Below are positions 9,479 through 59,181 of a DNA stretch of 59,181 nt, piece after piece. The stretch comes from a virus. The stretch's first letter is position 1, and each line of letters opens with the position of its first letter. Location: positions 1 through 59,181 of the IMG/VR virus record IMGVR_UViG_3300027906_000015; one strand, 5' to 3'. Both the position numbers and the translations under genes were made by a program. Below the pieces are notes generated by a model, which had not been told where the DNA came from, ran no database searches, and worked only from the letters and a program-made list of their open reading frames with translations.

Positions 9479-9843
9479 TGAATTATCATTTTGATATAGA
9501 ATTAACACCCCAAAGAGATGGGAGTGATGTAGTTAAAACTGTAAAGGTTAAAGTTAATCGTTGGACTAATGAAGGGGAAATGACTCAAAGAGATAGTACA
9601 TACGTATCAAACTCTGGACTGAAAGCTTCATGGAAAATAATTAATAGAGAACCGCTTATAGGTTCAGAAGAATTTACATATACTGTACCAACCGATGATC
9701 AGACAGATATAATACCTACTGGTTATCCAAGGGCAGAAACAGATAATCATAAAAATTGGGCTGAGTTTTATAATAAATGGGAACTTGGTATAATAGAAGA
9801 TAGTGGATATTTAGCCGCGGTAGAAGAATTAAAGAAATTATGA
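9478..9843 (+). CDS. Small partner protein of the duplicated tail module, copy 2 (121 aa)
   Basis: It starts at the ATG overlapping the preceding TAA, by the same TAATG coupling as copy 1. The protein (starts MNYHFDIELTPQRDGSDVVK) begins with beta strands and ends in a helical segment (WELGIIEDSGYLAAVEELKKL). Similarity to the 125-residue protein at 8202-8579 is weak but the gene order and the C-terminal layout are the same. It is probably a partner or chaperone of the larger protein encoded just before it; no family is recognised. Confidence 0.55.
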   Translation: MNYHFDIELTPQRDGSDVVKTVKVKVNRWTNEGEMTQRDSTYVSNSGLKASWKIINREPLIGSEEFTYTVPTDDQTDIIPTGYPRAETDNHKNWAEFYNKWELGIIEDSGYLAAVEELKKL

Positions 9844-19169: not shown

Positions 19170-19814
19170 ATGAAGTTAATATCAGAATACGTTGAATCTC
19201 CATTAGAGGTTATCGTAGAAAAGACAAATGGTAAAAAGAACCTTTATATAGAAGGTGTCTTTATGCAGGCCGAAAAGAAAAATAGAAACGGCCGAATATA
19301 TGAAAAAAAGATTTTAGAGAAAGCTGTTAGCAAATATGTTAAAGAACAGGTTTCTCAGGGAAGAGCAGTTGGAGAGTTAAATCATCCAGAAGGACCAACT
19401 GTAAACCTGGATAAAGTTTCACATAAAATTACGAACCTGGAATTCCAGGGAAATAATGTTTATGGAAAAGCATCAATACTTAAAACCCCAATGGGTCAAA
19501 TCGTAGAAGGTTTGCTCGAAGGTGGAGTTAAGCTTGGTGTATCAAGTCGTGGTATGGGAACTCTTGAGAACAGGAGAGATGGCGCGTATGTACGGGATGA
19601 CTTTATGTTAGCCTCCGTAGATATAGTCCAAGATCCCTCTGCACCTTCCGCTTTCGTTAACGGAATTATGGAAGGAGTAGACTGGATATGGGACAACGGC
19701 ATTTTGAAACCTCAAGACATTGAAGAAATTGAGACTGAAATTAAACGTGCTCCAATGAAGGCTTTGCCTGAATTGGAAATAAGGGCGTTTAAAAATTTCC
19801 TCTCTAAATTATAA
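19170..19814 (+). CDS. 21: Prohead core scaffold protease gp21
   Basis: This 214-residue serine protease of the T4 prohead (U9/S78-like, herpes-protease fold) cuts scaffold, capsid and internal proteins after (L/I)-X-Glu during maturation. The candidate triad is H72 (ELNHPEGP), S126 (GVSSRGMG) and D151 (ASVDIVQDPSAP). NRNGRIYEKKILEKAV is the conserved substrate-binding region. It sits immediately upstream of its substrates gp22 and gp23. The targeting-tag proteins at 54497-58502 are further candidate substrates. Confidence 0.93.
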   Translation: MKLISEYVESPLEVIVEKTNGKKNLYIEGVFMQAEKKNRNGRIYEKKILEKAVSKYVKEQVSQGRAVGELNHPEGPTVNLDKVSHKITNLEFQGNNVYGKASILKTPMGQIVEGLLEGGVKLGVSSRGMGTLENRRDGAYVRDDFMLASVDIVQDPSAPSAFVNGIMEGVDWIWDNGILKPQDIEEIETEIKRAPMKALPELEIRAFKNFLSKL

Positions 19815-19835
19815 ATTACTTTGGGAGACAAAGAT

Positions 19836-21053
19836 ATGTCTAATTTGACTAACACATATAAAAAAATAGTCGAAGGCGTCGAGCCCGAATCAGTAGAAGA
19901 AATTGCTGAGACTTTGGAAGTTGAAGTTCCTGTAGAGGAAGATCAAGTAGAAGAAGTTGTTGAAGCAACTGAAGAAGCTGAGGAAGAGCAAGTACAAGTT
20001 TCCGAAGAGGAAATTCAAGTTGATGAAGCTAAAGTAAAGGAAGATGATGACGAAGATGAAGATGAAGACGACGATGAAGAAGTCGAAGAATCTGCACCTA
20101 AGTTTGAAATGCCTAAAACTAAAGCTGGTATCATAAACGCCGCAGTCGACATGCTTAAAAAAGCACGCAAGCACGAAGCGCAAGAGCTATTCGCCAGGAT
20201 GGTCAAAGAAGTTGAAGAGTCAATCGACGACGGATCAGTAGATAAAGCTATTGGAAAAGTAAAAGCAGAAAAGGATAAGTCTATTAAGGCTAAACCTTCT
20301 GATGCTTCTGCTAAACAAGAAGCTGCTGATTGGTCTGAGGACTTGGATCTTATAGTTGCTAATGAAGCAACATTATCCGATGGATTCCGTGATAAAGCCT
20401 CTGCTATCTTCGAAGCTGCTTACCAAACAAAGGTAGGTGCTGAAATAGATAGACTTGAGTCTGAATATGCGCAAAATCTTGAATCTGAAGTAAAGGAAGT
20501 CCAAGAAGGCATCGTAGAGAAAGTAGATTCATACTTGAACTATGTTGTTGAAAATTGGATGAAAGAAAATGAAGTCGCAGTACAACAAGGTCTTAGGACT
20601 GAAATTGCTGAAGAATTCATGACTTCTTTACAATCAGTGTTCAAAGAACATTATATTGAAGTTCCAGAAGGTAAAGCTGACCTGATCGACGATTTAGCTG
20701 ATCAAGTTTCTGAACTGGAAGAACAGCTCAATAAAACCACTGAAGACAATATACAATTACACGAAAAAGCTCAATCTTTTGAAAGAGCGGAAATCGTGCG
20801 TAAGGCGTCTTCCGGCTTAGCAGATACAGAAGCTGAGAAACTAGCTGAACTAGTTGAAAGTGTAGAATTTGAAGATAGCGAAACTTTTGAAAATAAAGTT
20901 AATGTTATTAAAGATTCTTACTTTAAACAAGAAGTTAGCGAATCAACTGATGAATCTGATGCACTAGTAGGCGAAGATGGGGAAACACCTGTTGAATTAT
21001 CTTCAAATATGAATGCGTACTCTCAAGCCTTAACTAAATTTAATAACAAATAA
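19836..21053 (+). CDS. 22: Major prohead scaffold protein gp22
   Basis: The start is placed at ATG 19836 (MSNLTNTYKKIVEG), after GGGAGACAAAG; an in-frame TTG at 19821 is less likely. The product is 405 residues, highly acidic in residues 20-80 and helical and coiled-coil after that, as expected for a scaffold that is digested to peptides in the head. The KTKAGIINAAVDMLKKARKH block is typical of marine T4-like gp22. Several (L/I)-X-Glu sites are present for gp21. Confidence 0.9.
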   Translation: MSNLTNTYKKIVEGVEPESVEEIAETLEVEVPVEEDQVEEVVEATEEAEEEQVQVSEEEIQVDEAKVKEDDDEDEDEDDDEEVEESAPKFEMPKTKAGIINAAVDMLKKARKHEAQELFARMVKEVEESIDDGSVDKAIGKVKAEKDKSIKAKPSDASAKQEAADWSEDLDLIVANEATLSDGFRDKASAIFEAAYQTKVGAEIDRLESEYAQNLESEVKEVQEGIVEKVDSYLNYVVENWMKENEVAVQQGLRTEIAEEFMTSLQSVFKEHYIEVPEGKADLIDDLADQVSELEEQLNKTTEDNIQLHEKAQSFERAEIVRKASSGLADTEAEKLAELVESVEFEDSETFENKVNVIKDSYFKQEVSESTDESDALVGEDGETPVELSSNMNAYSQALTKFNNK

Positions 21054-21079: not shown

Positions 21080-22393
21080 ATGTTTAATGCAGACAAAAAC
21101 TTAATTGAAAAATGGTCTCCAGTACTAGAGCACGAAAGCGCTCCAAGTATTGATGATCATTACAAAAAAAGTGTTACTGCACGTCTTCTTGAAAACCAAG
21201 AAGTAGCCCTACAAGAAGAAAGACAACAAAGATCTTTCAACATCTCAGAAGCAGCTGCTAACGTAACTGGATCTGGCGTTGATAATTTCGACCCTGTCTT
21301 AATCTCTCTTGTTAGACGTGCAATGCCTAATCTTATTGCTTATGATATCGCTGGCGTTCAGCCAATGAGTGGACCTACTGGTCTTATCTTCGCAATGAAA
21401 TCAAGGTATTCAACTCAAGGTGGTACTGAAGCACTATTTGATGAAGCTGACACAGACTTCTCAGGTACTGGCACACATCAAGCAGATCCAACTGGATTAG
21501 CTGGTGTAACTGATGCTGATACTGACGGAACAATCGGTGATCACGATACTTTATCAACTTTTGGTTCTGGTCTACCTACAGCTACTGCGGAAGCCCGTGG
21601 TACAACTGGTGGCGCTGGTGCGGCATTTGCAGAAATGGCTTTCTCAATCGAGAAATCAACTGTAACTGCTAAATCAAGAGCTCTAAAAGCAGAATACACA
21701 ATGGAATTAGCACAAGACCTTAAAGCTATTCATGGTCTTGACGCCGAAGGCGAACTAGCTAACATCCTAAGTGCAGAAATTCTAGCTGAAATCAACCGTG
21801 AAGTTGTAAGAACAATCTTATCGAAAGCTAAGCTTGGTGCTTTACAATCTTCAACTGCAACTTCTGGTATCTTTGATGTCGGAACTGACAGTGACGGTAG
21901 ATGGATGGCAGAGAAATTCAAAGGCCTAATTATGCAACTCGAAAGAGAAGCTAATGTTATCGCTAAAGAAACAAGACGTGGAAAAGGTAACTATGTTATC
22001 GTTTCTTCTGACGTTGCTTCAGCTTTAGCTGCATCAGGTATGATGGATTACGCTCCTGCACTATCAACTGGTCTTAACGTTGATGATACTGGCAACACAT
22101 TCGCTGGTGTTCTTAATGGAAGACTTAAAGTGTACATCGATCCATATGCAACTACAGACTTCGCGTGTGTAGGTTATAGAGGTGCAAACCCTTATGACGC
22201 TGGTATGTTCTATTGCCCATACGTTCCTTTAACTATGGTTAAAGCCGTTGGCGAAAGTGACTTCCAACCAAGGATCGGATTCAAAACTAGGTATGGCATG
22301 GTTGCTAACCCATTCGTCGGAACAGACGGAGTAGGTACTGACAGAGCTAACCCTTACTTTAGAATCTTCAGAGTTGATGACATAATGGTGTAA
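21080..22393 (+). CDS. 23: Major capsid protein gp23
   Basis: This 437-residue HK97-fold capsid protein is recognised by DNFDPVLISLVRRAMPNLIA, YDIAGVQPMSGPTGLIFAMK and the C-terminal TRYGMVANPF block. As in T4, an N-terminal peptide is probably removed by gp21; a matching site is I55-S56-E57 followed by AAAN. The gene shows slightly more GC-ending codons than its neighbours, consistent with very high expression. A strong terminator follows it. There is no perfect TATAAATA directly before it, so it is probably read from upstream late promoters. Confidence 0.96.
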   Translation: MFNADKNLIEKWSPVLEHESAPSIDDHYKKSVTARLLENQEVALQEERQQRSFNISEAAANVTGSGVDNFDPVLISLVRRAMPNLIAYDIAGVQPMSGPTGLIFAMKSRYSTQGGTEALFDEADTDFSGTGTHQADPTGLAGVTDADTDGTIGDHDTLSTFGSGLPTATAEARGTTGGAGAAFAEMAFSIEKSTVTAKSRALKAEYTMELAQDLKAIHGLDAEGELANILSAEILAEINREVVRTILSKAKLGALQSSTATSGIFDVGTDSDGRWMAEKFKGLIMQLEREANVIAKETRRGKGNYVIVSSDVASALAASGMMDYAPALSTGLNVDDTGNTFAGVLNGRLKVYIDPYATTDFACVGYRGANPYDAGMFYCPYVPLTMVKAVGESDFQPRIGFKTRYGMVANPFVGTDGVGTDRANPYFRIFRVDDIMV

Positions 22394-52061: not shown

Positions 52062-52679
52062 ATGAAACAGTTTCTAGCAACCATCTTATTGATGGCAGGA
52101 TTATCTACTTCAGTTAATGCTGCAGACTTTTCAGGTTCGCTTGGATGGTCTTCAGATTATATCTGGAGAGGTGTATCCCAAAATGCTAATAATCCAGCAC
52201 TTCATATCGACTTAGCGGTTGAACATGAAGGTTGGTATTTAGGTACTTGGGCAAGTCATACTGATTTAGGAATGGACAATTCTTACGAATACGATTTTTA
52301 TGGAGGCTACGATATGAAGCTTACAGATAAATTGTTAGTAGGAGGAGGATTCTTACAATATAATTATAACGGCGGTATTGAAAAAGTTACTGAACTATTC
52401 GTAGGTGGTAGCTATGCAGATATGGTTGAATTATGGTATTATGTTGATCATGAGAATTCTGATCTTTCGTATTTAGATACGAAGGTTAAAGTACCATTTA
52501 TATCCGTTGTTGATTTACACTTAAACTACGGCAAATGGAAAGATGGTGATGATGTTATCGGATTCACACTTTCAAAACAGCTGAATGATAACTTTGGAAT
52601 AAACCTTATGGTTTTGGAAGAAGCTAGACATGGTAAATTCATGGATTCAGCTGCTTTAGGATTTACTTATAATTTCTAA
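52062..52679 (+). CDS. Outer-membrane beta-barrel protein (Gcw_chp/TIGR02001-like)
   Basis: This 205-residue protein has a clear signal peptide (MKQFLATILLMAGLSTSVNA, cut before ADFS). Alternating strands follow, beginning FSGSLGWSSDYIWRGVSQ, the signature of the proteobacterial Gcw_chp family. The C-terminus ends in a Tyr-Asn-Phe strand (LGFTYNF), the usual signal for outer-membrane insertion. A phage protein in the host outer membrane could block superinfection, mask a receptor or alter permeability. GGAGG lies before the ATG. It is followed by a terminator. Confidence 0.75.
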   Translation: MKQFLATILLMAGLSTSVNAADFSGSLGWSSDYIWRGVSQNANNPALHIDLAVEHEGWYLGTWASHTDLGMDNSYEYDFYGGYDMKLTDKLLVGGGFLQYNYNGGIEKVTELFVGGSYADMVELWYYVDHENSDLSYLDTKVKVPFISVVDLHLNYGKWKDGDDVIGFTLSKQLNDNFGINLMVLEEARHGKFMDSAALGFTYNF

Positions 52680-53644: not shown

Positions 53645-54076
53645 ATGGATAGAAAAGCAATAATTGTAGATATTGATGGTACTGTTGCAACTCATTATGA
53701 TGCTGATGGAAATCAAACTAGAGAACATCACGATTATTCTCAGGTTGGAACAGATCTTCCTATACAGCCTATAATTGATCTTGTAAAAATGTATGAAGAT
53801 AAAGGTTATCATATAATCTTTGTTTCAGGTAGAATGGATCATTGCAGACAAGATACTATTCAATGGTTAATAGATCATGATGTTCCTTTTGATGAATTAT
53901 TCATGAGAAGGTTCAAAGATTTTAGAGCTGATGATATTGTTAAAGAAGAGATATATAGAGCATATATTGAAGAACAATATAATGTTGAAATTGTTCTTGA
54001 CGATAGAAACAGAGTTGTTGATATGTGGAGAAGAATTGGATTAAGAGTTCTTCAAGTAGCTGAAGGTGATTTTTAA
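53645..54076 (+). CDS. Polynucleotide 3'-phosphatase domain, PseT-like, without kinase
   Basis: This 143-residue HAD-family phosphatase has D9 and D11 in VDIDGT, a SGRMD strand, and the C-terminal IVLDDRNRVVDMWRRIGLRV block, which closely matches the phosphatase half of T4 PseT (Pnkp). The P-loop kinase half of PseT is absent, so this is a stand-alone 3'-phosphatase domain. It probably heals 3' ends of cut RNA or DNA, for example after host tRNA anticodon cleavage, before ligation. It overlaps the next gene by one base. Confidence 0.85.
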   Translation: MDRKAIIVDIDGTVATHYDADGNQTREHHDYSQVGTDLPIQPIIDLVKMYEDKGYHIIFVSGRMDHCRQDTIQWLIDHDVPFDELFMRRFKDFRADDIVKEEIYRAYIEEQYNVEIVLDDRNRVVDMWRRIGLRVLQVAEGDF

Positions 54077-54446: not shown

Positions 54447-54451
54447 TTTGT

Positions 54452-54459
54452 ATAAATAG
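54452..54459 (+). promoter_or_regulatory. Late promoter of the capsid-tag gene block
   Basis: A perfect TATAAATA lies 37 bases before the ATG at 54497. It indicates that the block from 54497 rightward is expressed late, like virion genes. Confidence 0.78.
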
Positions 54460-54496: not shown

Positions 54497-55903
54497 ATGC
54501 GTTTTAGTTCATATATAAAACAACCGCTAGTAGAAGCAGTAAAACTAACTCCGTCTGAGTTAGAAAAGCAAAACTCTAGAACAAAAGAAGATCGAATTGA
54601 CATCCTTACAAGATTAATAAAGGATAAAACTCCTTTAGAACTTGCAAAAGGTGGATCTTTCACGGTTGGAGAAATAGAATCAGCATTAGTTAATTGCGCA
54701 TTATTTAAAAAGAATCCTGACCATTTCGGAAAGGTTGGTTTCCCTCTTATAGCAACAGATGGAACCGAATATAAATCAAATGATCTAGCTAAATCCAAAG
54801 TATTTGGAGGAGGCGTTGGTGGTGCTGGTTCTGGTACCAAAGATACAGAAAGAAATGAATCACATAACGCGTGTATGATGCGCGCGGTAGTTGATGATGG
54901 ATATAATAATGATTTAGATCATTTTAATGATGAGCGTATAGCTCAAGCTTATAAAGATAATGGATCAGCTAATATATCTGCAAATACAGATAAGATATTA
55001 GAAACCCCAGAGAATTGGTGGTTATCATCTTATATTATATCTAAATTCTTAGCAGAAAAAGGATATATTAATAAAGATCAAATTTTTGATCGTGGTGGTC
55101 CTGGTATGACCTTAGTATATGCTCTTAAAAATGAAGCATATAGAAACAATGGATTTAAACCATTAAAAGATGATAAGTGGAATCCAGGAGATGTATGGGC
55201 AATAGAAGATGGATTAGATCTTAAATCAGAATTAGATACTTCCTCAGTAGGTGCATTTAATAGATCAATAATGAATTTATTTGTTGATAGAAAATTAGTT
55301 GCTATATCATTGAAAGGTCCTGAATCAAAATCCCCACCTCCTAATTCAACATATAATCTTAAACAACCACCTGAATCCCCAGTACATAAACTTAAAGAAA
55401 TTAAATTAGAATCCGGACGTGGTGACTTCTGGTCAGCAAAAGGAATGGAAATAGTTTATGATACAGGTTCAATGACCTTTAAAGATAACTCTCCAGGTGG
55501 AACAAACAAAGCTGAAATAAAAGGTAAGAAAGCCCGTGGTGGTGGATTATCTTGGGGTATTATGATAGAATTTATAAAGAGAGAAGCTAGAAGAGCTCCA
55601 CCAGAACACGCAAAAGGAATTAAACCAACCGCTAAAAAAATAGCAAAAGGTAATGCTAGAGCTACTAAATTAATGTTTGGTTTATTTAATCATTTCTACC
55701 CAAGTGTACCTGAAAAGGAATTCAAAGAAGAATTAGCTAAGAAAGATTGGACGTGGATCTCAGCTAAACTTGGTGCTTTATACGTTGCTTATTACTTATC
55801 TAAGAATACTGGAACTAAAGCTAATGCAATGATAACTAATTTCGTTAACTACGCTGGATCTGATTTATTAGATTCTAGTACATATATTAAAGTAGGAAAA
55901 TAA
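54497..55903 (+). CDS. Late protein with capsid-targeting-like N-terminus (468 aa)
   Basis: The first 14 residues, MRFSSYIKQPLVEA, match a tag shared by the next three genes, and L-V-E fits the (L/I)-X-Glu cleavage rule of the gp21 protease. The body has no family I can name. It contains HNACMMRAVVDDG, a Pro/Ser-rich stretch (ESKSPPPNSTYNLKQPPESP), KLESGRGDFWSAKGMEIVYD-like strands and a basic region (REARRAPPEHAKGIKP). The product may be packaged in the head and injected. It overlaps the next gene by one base. Confidence 0.6.
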   Translation: MRFSSYIKQPLVEAVKLTPSELEKQNSRTKEDRIDILTRLIKDKTPLELAKGGSFTVGEIESALVNCALFKKNPDHFGKVGFPLIATDGTEYKSNDLAKSKVFGGGVGGAGSGTKDTERNESHNACMMRAVVDDGYNNDLDHFNDERIAQAYKDNGSANISANTDKILETPENWWLSSYIISKFLAEKGYINKDQIFDRGGPGMTLVYALKNEAYRNNGFKPLKDDKWNPGDVWAIEDGLDLKSELDTSSVGAFNRSIMNLFVDRKLVAISLKGPESKSPPPNSTYNLKQPPESPVHKLKEIKLESGRGDFWSAKGMEIVYDTGSMTFKDNSPGGTNKAEIKGKKARGGGLSWGIMIEFIKREARRAPPEHAKGIKPTAKKIAKGNARATKLMFGLFNHFYPSVPEKEFKEELAKKDWTWISAKLGALYVAYYLSKNTGTKANAMITNFVNYAGSDLLDSSTYIKVGK

Positions 55904-57144
55904 TGGAATCATTTAAAACATTTAAACAACCCCTACAAGAAGCAAAGAATACTCATATGACCCATATAGAGGATTTAGTTCTTGATGGAGGAGTCAAGGG
56001 AGCCAGACAAGCGATTTTAGCGCTCAGATCACTAAGAGACATGCTTGCTGGGAACACACCCACTGCTGCTGATATCACAGTTAAATGGGACGGTGCTCCC
56101 GCCGTATTCGCAGGTATAGATCCTAGTGATGGAGAATTCTTCGTTGCTAAGAAAGGTATATTTGCAAAAAATTCCAAGGTATATAAATCGCATGATGATA
56201 TAGATGCTGATACCTCTGGGGATTTAGCTAAAAAACTTAAATTGGCTTATGACCATTTAAAAGACTTGGGCATCGATGGTGTTATCCAAGGCGATTTTAT
56301 GTTCGATAAAAAAGATTTAGGTTCTGAAAAAATAAATGGAGTTAAATATACTACATTTCATCCTAATACTATAATGTATGCAATACCTGTAGGAACGCCT
56401 TTAGAAAAGAAAATAAAGAAAGCAAAGATAGGTATTGTTTGGCATACCAAATATAAAGGATCATCATTTGAAACAATGAATGCGGAATTTGGTGTAGAGA
56501 TTTCTTCTAAGTTAAAAAGTTCTTCTAAAGTTTGGCAAGTAGATGCAACATTACCACAACAAGAAGGTGCGGTATTAGATGCAGATGATACGAAAGCAGT
56601 TACAACAGCATTATCTAATGCAGGTAAAACATTCAAAAAGATTGCTTCATCTACCCTAAAAGAAATAGAAGAAGATTCAGAATTAAACTTATTAATCAAT
56701 ACTTTTAATAATACAAAGGTAAGAGCAGCAGAAAGAATTACTAATCCAAAAAAACATGTTAAAGAATTAATCGATTGGGTTAACCTCAGATACTATAAAC
56801 AAAAAGAAAAATTAAGTTCTGATAAAGGTAAAGCTGGTGTTGATGCAAAAAAAGAAAGAATTATGACATTTTTCTCAACGAAAAACAAAAAAAATCTTGA
56901 AAATGTCTTTAATTTACAGAATTACATCGTGGATGCGAAATTAATTATTATAAATAAACTAAACGGTCTAAGTAATATTGGAACGTTTTTAAAAACTAAG
57001 TCCGGATTTAAAGTAACCAACCCAGAAGGTTTTGTTGCTATAGATCGTATGGAAGGTGGAGCGGTTAAGTTAGTTGATAGATTAGAATTTTCTACAAATA
57101 ACTTTTCTGCCGATATAATAAAAGGCTGGGATAATCCAGGCTAG
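55903..57144 (+). CDS. Ligase-superfamily (nucleotidyltransferase) protein with capsid-tag N-terminus
   Basis: This 413-residue protein has the covalent nucleotidyltransferase layout: K61-W-D-G (motif I, VKWDGAPAV), a following FVAKKGIF strand, DGVIQGDFMF (motif III-like), NPEGFVAID at 373-381 (motif IV-like) and AVKLVDR at 387-393 (motif V-like). This suggests an ATP-dependent DNA or RNA ligase or end-capping enzyme; marine phage homologues are, I believe, annotated DUF6267. The N-terminus MESFKTFKQPLQEA carries the shared tag with an L-Q-E cleavage site. It may be packaged and act on the entering genome. Confidence 0.65.
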   Translation: MESFKTFKQPLQEAKNTHMTHIEDLVLDGGVKGARQAILALRSLRDMLAGNTPTAADITVKWDGAPAVFAGIDPSDGEFFVAKKGIFAKNSKVYKSHDDIDADTSGDLAKKLKLAYDHLKDLGIDGVIQGDFMFDKKDLGSEKINGVKYTTFHPNTIMYAIPVGTPLEKKIKKAKIGIVWHTKYKGSSFETMNAEFGVEISSKLKSSSKVWQVDATLPQQEGAVLDADDTKAVTTALSNAGKTFKKIASSTLKEIEEDSELNLLINTFNNTKVRAAERITNPKKHVKELIDWVNLRYYKQKEKLSSDKGKAGVDAKKERIMTFFSTKNKKNLENVFNLQNYIVDAKLIIINKLNGLSNIGTFLKTKSGFKVTNPEGFVAIDRMEGGAVKLVDRLEFSTNNFSADIIKGWDNPG

Positions 57145-57160
57145 ATGGGACCAAGGATAA

Positions 57161-57529
57161 ATGCAATCATTTAAAGAGTACATAGAATTCGACGAAGCCA
57201 TGACAATGGCTACCCGAATGAAAATGAAAGCAGCATTCCGAAAAAATAAAGCTAAGATAGCTTTAGGAAGAAAAAAAGCTGCGAAGAAACTCGCCTCCCC
57301 AGAAAAGCTTAAAGCAAGAGCTACAAAGCAAGCCCGAAACGTCCTAATTAAAAAACTTCTTAAGAATAAAGATAAGAAGCAATTATCATATGCTGAAAGA
57401 CAAGCTTTAGAAATTAAGATGGCTAAAAAACAGGGTGCTATAATGAAGATAGCTAAAAAGCTTTTACCCGCAGTAAAAAAAGCAGATAGAGAAAAAATGA
57501 AAGCGAGGCGAAATGACACATCAAGTTAA
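57161..57529 (+). CDS. Highly basic late protein with capsid-tag N-terminus (122 aa)
   Basis: The tag MQSFKEYIEFDEA is followed by a protein extremely rich in Lys, Ala and Arg (KAAFRKNKAKIALGRKKAAK, and so on), with no acidic clusters. This composition resembles phage internal head proteins and histone-like DNA-binding proteins. It probably binds the packaged genome. It overlaps the next gene by 17 bases. F-D-E is a weaker gp21 site than the L-X-E sites of its neighbours. Confidence 0.65.
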   Translation: MQSFKEYIEFDEAMTMATRMKMKAAFRKNKAKIALGRKKAAKKLASPEKLKARATKQARNVLIKKLLKNKDKKQLSYAERQALEIKMAKKQGAIMKIAKKLLPAVKKADREKMKARRNDTSS

Positions 57530-58502
57530 ATCATTCTCAGATTATTTAAAAGAAGATACAAATGAAATAACATTTGCATTCGGTAGATTTAATCCACCAA
57601 CAAGTGGACATGAAAAATTAATGAATGCGGTAAAGAAGTTATCAAGAGGTGGGACATATAGAATATATCCAAGCCAATCTCAAGATGCTAAAAAGAATCC
57701 GCTAGATTTTAAACTTAAAGTTAAGTTTATGAGAAAGATGTTTCCTAAACATGCTAGGAACATTATGAAAGATACAGGAATGAGAACAGCATTTGATGTT
57801 ATTGTTGCTTTATATGATCAAGGATATACTCAAGTTACATTTGTAGCTGGTGAAGATAGAGTTATAGAATTTGATAAACTCTTTAACAAATATAATGGTA
57901 CAAAAGGAAGACATGGTTTTTATCAATTTAAAAATGGTGTTAAAGTTGTAAGCGCGGGAGCGCGTGACCCAGACGCAGAAGGTGTTGAGGGTATGTCAGC
58001 TTCTAAACTAAGAGCAGCAGCTAGTGATAATGATTTAAAACTTTTTGCTAAAGGTATGCCAAAAGGATTTAAAGAAGTTGAAAATCTATTCAATGCAGTT
58101 AGAGCAGGAATGGGTTTAAAAGAATCGAAAGATTATAGAAAGCATGTACAATTAGAAAAGGTTTCCGATAGAAGAGAAGATTATATAAAAGGAAAACTAT
58201 TTAAAACTGGTGATGATGTTATAGTTAAAGAAAGCCAAGAGGTTGGAAAGATTACAGTTCTTGGAGCTAACTATGTTATGGTTGATTTTGGAAATGAAAC
58301 CAAAAAAAGATGTTGGCTCGAAGATATAGAATTATTCGAGACATTGGAAACAATGGCTGGAGAATGGGGTACTGATAAATCAGTTAAAACTTATCAAAAG
58401 GATACTCCAGGACAAAAAGAGATTTTAGATTTCAATAAGTTTATTCTTAATAATAAGAAAAAATTTAAAGAAGAAAATAAACAAAGATGGAAAAAAAGCT
58501 AA
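57513..58502 (+). CDS. Cytidylyltransferase-fold nucleotidyltransferase with capsid-tag N-terminus
   Basis: This 329-residue protein has a tag-like start (MTHQVKSFSDYLKEDTNE, with L-K-E). A Rossmann-type nucleotidyltransferase domain follows: FGRFNPPTSGHEKLM gives the HxGH-like T-S-G-H signature, VTFVAGEDRVIEF a middle strand, and GMSASKLRAAA the ISSTxxR-like motif. Relatives make NAD or CDP-linked compounds. The C-terminal 130 residues are a separate charged region. A GC-rich island (57951-57977) codes for SAGARDPDA. Its substrate is unknown. Confidence 0.72.
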   Translation: MTHQVKSFSDYLKEDTNEITFAFGRFNPPTSGHEKLMNAVKKLSRGGTYRIYPSQSQDAKKNPLDFKLKVKFMRKMFPKHARNIMKDTGMRTAFDVIVALYDQGYTQVTFVAGEDRVIEFDKLFNKYNGTKGRHGFYQFKNGVKVVSAGARDPDAEGVEGMSASKLRAAASDNDLKLFAKGMPKGFKEVENLFNAVRAGMGLKESKDYRKHVQLEKVSDRREDYIKGKLFKTGDDVIVKESQEVGKITVLGANYVMVDFGNETKKRCWLEDIELFETLETMAGEWGTDKSVKTYQKDTPGQKEILDFNKFILNNKKKFKEENKQRWKKS

Positions 58503-58516
58503 TAAGCGAGGGCAAT

Positions 58517-59181
58517 ATGAAAAACGAAAAGGGGAATATGTCCGGATCAAAGCTCACAGGGCAAGAGATCAGTACATATTTTAGAAAAAATCCTAAAGCA
58601 AAAGCAGTTAAAAAAGCTGTTGAGATTGCTTTAGATCACGGCGGAGCTATGAACTACGCAATTAAGGAAATAGAAAAACTTAAAAGAGGTTTATCGAAAC
58701 ATCCTGAAGTAAAGAAAGCATTAGACTATGCTAACTTCGAAAGTGTACAAAAAGAATCTGTTCAACTTTATGGTAAAATAATTAGTGAAAATTATACACG
58801 TAATTTCGAAACACTATGTCAATCACTTAAGTTAAATGGTATTCAGCAAAAGATACTAGATGATTTTATTCATAAAGGAAGAATAAGAGATCAATACGTA
58901 GGAAGAGTAGCTGGATCTAAAAAAGAAACTAGAATATTTGCAGGTAAAAAGAAATTCTCAGGATCAATAGATAATAGAAGCGAAGCATTAATGAACGCCC
59001 TCAAAGTTAATGCTAAACAAAAATCTATTCTTGATGCTTACCTCAAAACTGGAAAGGTTATTGGAAAATATACTGGTTCGATTGCTGGTTCAACTAAAGA
59101 TACTAAATCATATACTGGATTTAGAGGATTCAAAGAACATTTTGAAATAGAAGAAAAGGTTGGTAAAATGAGATCTTGGAG
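58517..59181 (+). CDS. Late hypothetical protein with internal repeats, 3' end cut by window
   Basis: 221 codons are visible and the frame runs off the right edge. The protein is basic and helical with a two-fold internal repeat: residues about 105-145 (ILDDFIHKGRIRDQYVGRVA) and 163-205 (ILDAYLKTGKVIGKYTGSIA), each ending in a GS(K/T)K(E/D)T and aromatic-Gly segment. An ATG at 58538 is an alternative start. It follows the nucleotidyltransferase in the same late block but lacks the shared N-terminal tag. No family is recognised. Confidence 0.6.
   Translation, partial: MKNEKGNMSGSKLTGQEISTYFRKNPKAKAVKKAVEIALDHGGAMNYAIKEIEKLKRGLSKHPEVKKALDYANFESVQKESVQLYGKIISENYTRNFETLCQSLKLNGIQQKILDDFIHKGRIRDQYVGRVAGSKKETRIFAGKKKFSGSIDNRSEALMNALKVNAKQKSILDAYLKTGKVIGKYTGSIAGSTKDTKSYTGFRGFKEHFEIEEKVGKMRSW

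Follow-up and report, generated by a model that had tools for sequence, protein, structure and literature searches.

Four consecutive proteins of a marine T4-like phage very probably carry a T4-type capsid-targeting sequence

In a virus record of 59,181 bases, from a marine T4-like phage (IMGVR_UViG_3300027906_000015; the window, meaning the whole stretch of DNA analysed), four consecutive genes encode unrelated proteins with a common N-terminal tag. Our results suggest, with a probability of about 0.88, that this tag is a capsid-targeting sequence (CTS) of the T4 type, borne by head cargo. Since the tag shared by these neighbouring proteins is the address with which T4 loads its head, the virus very probably carries enzymes in its particle and, by analogy with T4, would deliver them to the host along with its DNA.

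Four neighbouring proteins share an N-terminal tag

The four open reading frames (ORFs) were confirmed at 54497-58502, all on the + strand. They encode a 468-residue protein (phrog_1462; 54497..55903; N-terminus MRFSSYIKQPLVEA), which is predicted head cargo; a 413-residue DUF6267 protein (PF19782, phrog_455; 55903..57144; MESFKTFKQPLQEA); a basic protein of 122 residues (phrog_23027 match; 57161..57529; MQSFKEYIEFDEA); and an NMNAT/cytidylyltransferase-like enzyme, hereafter the cytidylyltransferase (phrog_395; 57513..58502; MTHQVKSFSDYLKED). The last probably starts at the ATG at 57513, which is preceded by GAGG and lies four codons before a GTG at 57525; its relatives likewise have 1-5 residues ahead of SF.

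The tag follows the pattern M-x(1-5)-[F/L]-x-x-[Y/F/H]-...-[L/I]-x-E-[A/S/D]. The initial annotation had noticed a pattern of this kind in the four N-termini. At the N-terminus, [FYL]xx[FYH]...[LIVMF]xE matched exactly these four among the 74 called genes of the window; its background rate is 2.3% (380/16592) of arbitrary positions in window proteins. Each tag was also given a leave-family-out score by a position-specific model for which only the other three tag families served as training data; <0.01% of random protein positions score at least 12. The scores were 12.3 for the 468-residue protein (54497..54538, + strand; MRFSSYIKQPLVE, predicted cut before A), 18.7 for the DUF6267 protein (55903..55944, +; MESFKTFKQPLQE, predicted cut before A), 16.6 for the basic protein (57161..57199, +; MQSFKEYIEFDEA, where P3 is not L/I) and 13.8 for the cytidylyltransferase (57513..57557, +; MTHQVKSFSDYLKE, predicted cut before D). 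The predicted cut sites LVE↓A and LQE↓A (468-residue and DUF6267 proteins) and LKE↓D (cytidylyltransferase) all contain the (L/I)xE motif of the prohead protease gp21.

The tag residues are disordered in both AlphaFold models, those of the 468-residue protein (residues 1-11, predicted local distance difference test (pLDDT) <50) and of DUF6267. The arrangement seen in this late-promoter cassette is thus a disordered extension of 10-15 residues, then (L/I)xE↓A, ahead of unrelated folded domains. Note that the first two tags both contain KQPLxEA. Copying of the tag within the genome was considered, and duplication is not claimed because similarity between the tags was mixed (DUF6267-cytidylyltransferase p 0.0016, DUF6267-basic p 0.007, 468-residue-DUF6267 p 0.90).

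The tag matches the T4 capsid-targeting sequence

The initial annotation had proposed that the tag works like that of the T4 internal head proteins, and this is supported by T4 itself. When a model built from the marine tags only was run over 802 T4 ORFs, IPI, IPII and IPIII came out at ranks 2, 3 and 4. In the CTS of T4 IPIII, targeting depends on residues 4 and 7 and processing on residues 8 and 10 (reviewed in PMC9026906). The aromatics of the marine tag (aromatic or hydrophobic residues near positions 4 and 7 of the N-terminal propeptide) coincide with the first pair, and its hydrophobic residue and Glu coincide with the second. Some relatives of the basic protein start MKTFKEF, like T4 IPI. 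Separately, T4 gene 61.1 (L294:18966-19130; 54 residues, MKTFKEFIKEDM) scored above IPI-IPIII, and its product may also belong to the internal proteins of T4.

The machinery that would read such a tag is encoded by the same phage. The gp21 protease, expected to cut the tags, lies at 19170..19814 on the + strand (PF03420, E 1.5e-42), where the initial annotation had located it, and contains the GELNHPEGP and GVSSRG regions. It is followed on the same strand by a gp22-type core scaffold, on which the tags probably dock (19821..21053; PF25623, 9e-62), and by the major capsid protein gp23 (21080..22393; PF07068, 2.4e-142), which has its own gp21 site, NISE↓AAANVTG. The head genes stand in the usual order: portal, gp21, gp22-type scaffold, gp23 and a weak gp67 match.

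A late promoter had also been suggested near 54452, and an exact match to the T4-type late promoter -10 element, TATAAATA, is found at 54451..54458 (+ strand), upstream of the cassette. Such sites are no more numerous in the window than chance predicts (17 vs 13.3 expected), and enrichment by count was dropped as an argument. Their position is significant: 10 of the 17, the cassette site included, lie 5-90 nucleotides ahead of a gene start (p ~2e-6).

The tag is kept in relatives

We compared N-termini across relatives (80 IMG/VR loci per cassette protein), a check that the initial annotation had proposed. The tag is mostly kept in all four families, and some cyanophage homologues are untagged. 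An [F/L]xx[Y/F/H]-type pattern was matched by 76/82 distinct N-termini of the 468-residue family, 101/129 of DUF6267, 67/84 of the basic family and 129/131 of the cytidylyltransferases, mostly near positions 4 and 7, while length and letters vary. In three families (468-residue, DUF6267 and cytidylyltransferase) P3 is L/I, P1 is E and P1' is mostly A (or S, E, D). A pattern held over hundreds of sequences while exact sequence and length vary argues for selection on the tag itself. The tagged bodies are mutually unrelated, belonging to different Pfam and PHROG families, and share the leader with no other similarity.

Untagged homologues are found as well. Cyanophage DUF6267 genes that neighbour the cytidylyltransferase often lack the tag, and phage P-HM2 (L304:4025-5793) has untagged homologues of both, which are natural untagged controls. 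By contrast, Methylophilales phage Melnitz, a cultured relative, has a tagged DUF6267. In phage C48C1 (L002:9613-11022), the annotated cytidyltransferase start (9679) cuts off a tag, and an in-frame start at 9613 gives the tagged N-terminus MIKNFSQYLLEE. Mis-annotated starts may conceal such tags elsewhere.

Tag scores agree with published virion proteomes

Enzymes without a structural role recur in cyanophage virion proteomes, and the authors of those studies could not tell whether they are cargo or contaminants. For phage S-CREM2, Table 3 of the published proteome gives 52 virion proteins detected by mass spectrometry (PMC10665884). The tag model was not trained on this phage. A score of at least 12 was reached by 4/52 of the virion-detected proteins on that list and by 0/167 of the others (hypergeometric p ~0.003; 0.012 without the cytidylyltransferase, calculated by hand from the counts). 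The four are the cytidylyltransferase, an APH/ChoK-like kinase, ORF13 and an S-adenosylmethionine (SAM) hydrolase, all of them non-structural. At a lower cut-off of 10 the counts were 4/52 vs 1/167 (p 0.012), and the loose pattern alone separated the two groups weakly (6/52 vs 5/167, p 0.024). The DUF6267 homologue of S-CREM2 is untagged and is not among the proteins detected in Table 3. The virion cytidylyltransferases of S-SM1 and S-SCSM1 start with MKKFSAFLNEA and MKSFLQFLKEA, respectively.

As a separate observation, the Cas9-like gp12 of S-CREM2 (L298:7704-10313), listed as virion-detected, has a tag-like LRFASFMAEA at residues 17-26, some way into the annotated protein. If S-CREM2 did package a Cas9, this would be remarkable.

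Alternative explanations

The tag could be an assembly peptide for docking to another structure, such as the tail, the baseplate or the replisome, so that detection in virions would reflect attachment elsewhere than in the head. Some tagged genes do adjoin replication genes in relatives, and mass spectrometry is silent on position within the virion. We consider this very unlikely, because the tag agrees with the T4 CTS in sequence and in the mapped key residues, because the model recovers internal head proteins of T4, and because no tail or baseplate protein of S-CREM2 is among the high scorers.

Several findings weigh against the CTS explanation, and some of them would suit an inherited relic on cytoplasmic proteins that contaminate virion preparations. 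The authors of the S-CREM2 and S-SCSM1 proteomes caution that abundant enzymes may co-purify with CsCl-purified virions. The (L/I)-X-Glu cleavage motif named by the initial annotation is present in three of the four proteins and absent from the basic one, which has FDE↓A in the window and whose family has mostly Q, A or N in place of a hydrophobic P3. This protein keeps the targeting part and may be packaged uncleaved. In addition, the published virion evidence that could be drawn on covers homologues of 2/4 cassette families (468-residue and cytidylyltransferase), and for the first of these the homologue S-SCSM1_90, annotated as a virion protein, carries no recognisable tag, so the tag is not strictly required for that family. 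A relic is nevertheless scarcely probable: the pattern has been held despite varying sequence and length, no S-CREM2 protein absent from the published virion list scored at least 12, and the untagged DUF6267 homologue there was absent from the list too. The presence of the tag itself argues against contamination as the source of the cyanophage virion enzymes.

Chance, or the composition of AT-rich, lysine-rich phage proteins of low complexity, is ruled out by the pattern, model-score and shuffling results, since the loose pattern, found at about 2% of positions, falls here on four consecutive genes, 0/70 other called window genes reach a model score of even 10, shuffled N-termini reach the tag threshold in 14/22400 trials and the T4 internal proteins are recovered.

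Proposed route and functions of the cargo

With the tag read as a CTS, the T4 route would apply as follows. Late in infection, each protein would attach to the scaffold core through its two tag aromatics, and the shell would close round the docked proteins. gp21 would then cut after (L/I)xE; the mature proteins would stay with the DNA inside the head and be injected at the next infection. Less certainly, they would be active there ahead of all phage gene expression. The NMNAT-like enzyme would act on NAD or related nucleotides, with DUF6267 as a partner in nucleotidyl transfer, and the basic protein would act on the incoming DNA. The best reading of the cargo's role may be early takeover or counter-defence, for example by supporting NAD or nucleotide pools.

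The fourth protein had been called a nucleotidyltransferase, and it proved to belong to the NMNAT/cytidylyltransferase superfamily. It has GRFNPPTSGH and MSASKLR motifs, a C-terminal extension and a strong phrog_395 profile match (2.4e-78), and it scored 17.3 bits against Pfam PF01467, under the 21-bit cut-off. Among its relatives, GR[FY]NPP[TH]xGH is present in 137/141 and an ISxTxxR-like motif in 131/141.

In the DUF6267 protein the domain starts at residue 15-16, directly after the tag. Relatives have an invariant KWDGAPA (VKWDGAPA is near-invariant) and near-invariant EGFVA and AVKLVDR, with counterparts in S-CREM2 gp87 (KIDG/EGFV/IKLVDR). These would answer to motifs I (KxDG), IV (EGxV) and V (KxV/K) of the ATP-dependent DNA/RNA ligase superfamily. 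From motifs alone, this suggests a ligase-like nucleotidyltransferase. The earlier label 'ligase-like enzyme' is borne out to this extent; a ligase proper found no support, as a moderate model (pLDDT 75.6) gave no fold match and comparison with T4 ligases gave no profile match.

The AlphaFold model of the 468-residue protein is confident (pLDDT 88); it matched nothing in the PDB by sequence or by fold and has fold homologues in cyanophages. The basic protein is very basic and is probably DNA-binding or DNA-condensing cargo.

A wider, exchangeable cargo cassette

The fetched loci held 1,120 tagged ORFs (with redundancy) in about 35 clusters, some of them merged through low-complexity matches, with up to nine tagged ORFs per locus. 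All of the clusters lie on the cassette strand, a statistic of limited weight because most loci were oriented by the cassette itself. Tagged cargo in relatives includes Zeta-toxin/AAA_33 kinases (P-loop), a PAP2 phosphatase and DUF5754-like proteins. In the closest relative one more tagged gene, DUF5754-like, stands between cassette genes one and two, which indicates that members of the set are gained and lost. The gene order 468-residue protein, DUF6267, basic protein, cytidylyltransferase was found in 109 loci. S-PM2 has DUF6267 fused to the cytidylyltransferase, and phage DLP_6 has the basic domain fused to it, which suggests that the three proteins work together.

The marine cassette would be an exchangeable cargo set, of which the window shows four members. 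We think it likely that marine T4-like (Kyanoviridae-type) phages in general use the CTS to address their cargo, and that the interchangeable cassette marked in this way supplies dozens of injected effectors and enzymes that are unrelated to one another. The cargo would comprise NMNAT-like enzymes, DUF6267, Zeta-toxin-like kinases, the PAP2 phosphatase, SAM hydrolase, the APH-like kinase and possibly Cas9. Such an address would make the injected proteome of abundant ocean phages readable from sequence alone and would explain the cyanophage virion enzymes. A readable tag marks likely cargo, predicts many new cargo proteins in abundant ocean phages and indicates what would be delivered during the first minutes of an infection: NAD or nucleotide metabolism, kinases and SAM removal.

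Three other genes were noted. Shortly upstream of the cassette, 53645-54076 encodes a polynucleotide kinase-type HAD phosphatase (PF25109, 1.2e-48). The product of 52062-52679 is predicted to be secreted and matches the uncharacterised bacterial family Gcw_chp (PF09694, 7.9e-13), here in a phage genome. The next ORF downstream (58487-59179) is open at the contig end and has neither tag nor confident family match; its start, MEKKLISEG, may be the wrong one.

Comparison with known systems

The closest parallel is with T4 IPI, IPII and IPIII, otherwise unrelated proteins that share a propeptide of about 10-20 residues, aromatics at 4/7 and an (I/L)xE↓A gp21 site. Those are small basic proteins, inhibitors of Type IV restriction where their function is known (PMC12373910), whereas the marine cassette, in a Kyanoviridae-type phage, brings together a 413-residue DUF6267 protein, a 468-residue protein and an NMNAT-like enzyme. 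T4 Alt resembles this cargo in being an enzyme, an ADP-ribosyltransferase, that sits in the head core, is cleaved by gp21 and is injected (PMC9026906); it differs in its short propeptide, MELITE, which lacks the F4/Y7 pattern. The ejection proteins of SPN3US and phiKZ-type phages are, as described in abstracts, also head cargo that enters the cell and have propeptides cleaved by a prohead protease (PMC5694885, PMC7411985).

Among cyanophages, a homologous cytidylyltransferase/NMNAT was reported in purified virions of S-SM1, S-CREM2, S-SCSM1 and S-CBWM1 (PMC3037559, PMC10665884, PMC9602691), and those of the first three carry the tag; unlike the present analysis, the available portions of these proteome papers mention no packaging mechanism or tag. 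Internal proteins of T-even phages that bear a CTS were already known, having been identified through their signal (PMC12373910), and the T4 review suggests that diverse proteins could generally be routed through the CTS (PMC9026906). In the literature searched we found no study that extends it to marine T4-like phages or ties it to cyanophage virion enzymes. What appears to be new, then, is the same T4 address on an enzyme-rich cassette of marine T4-like phages.

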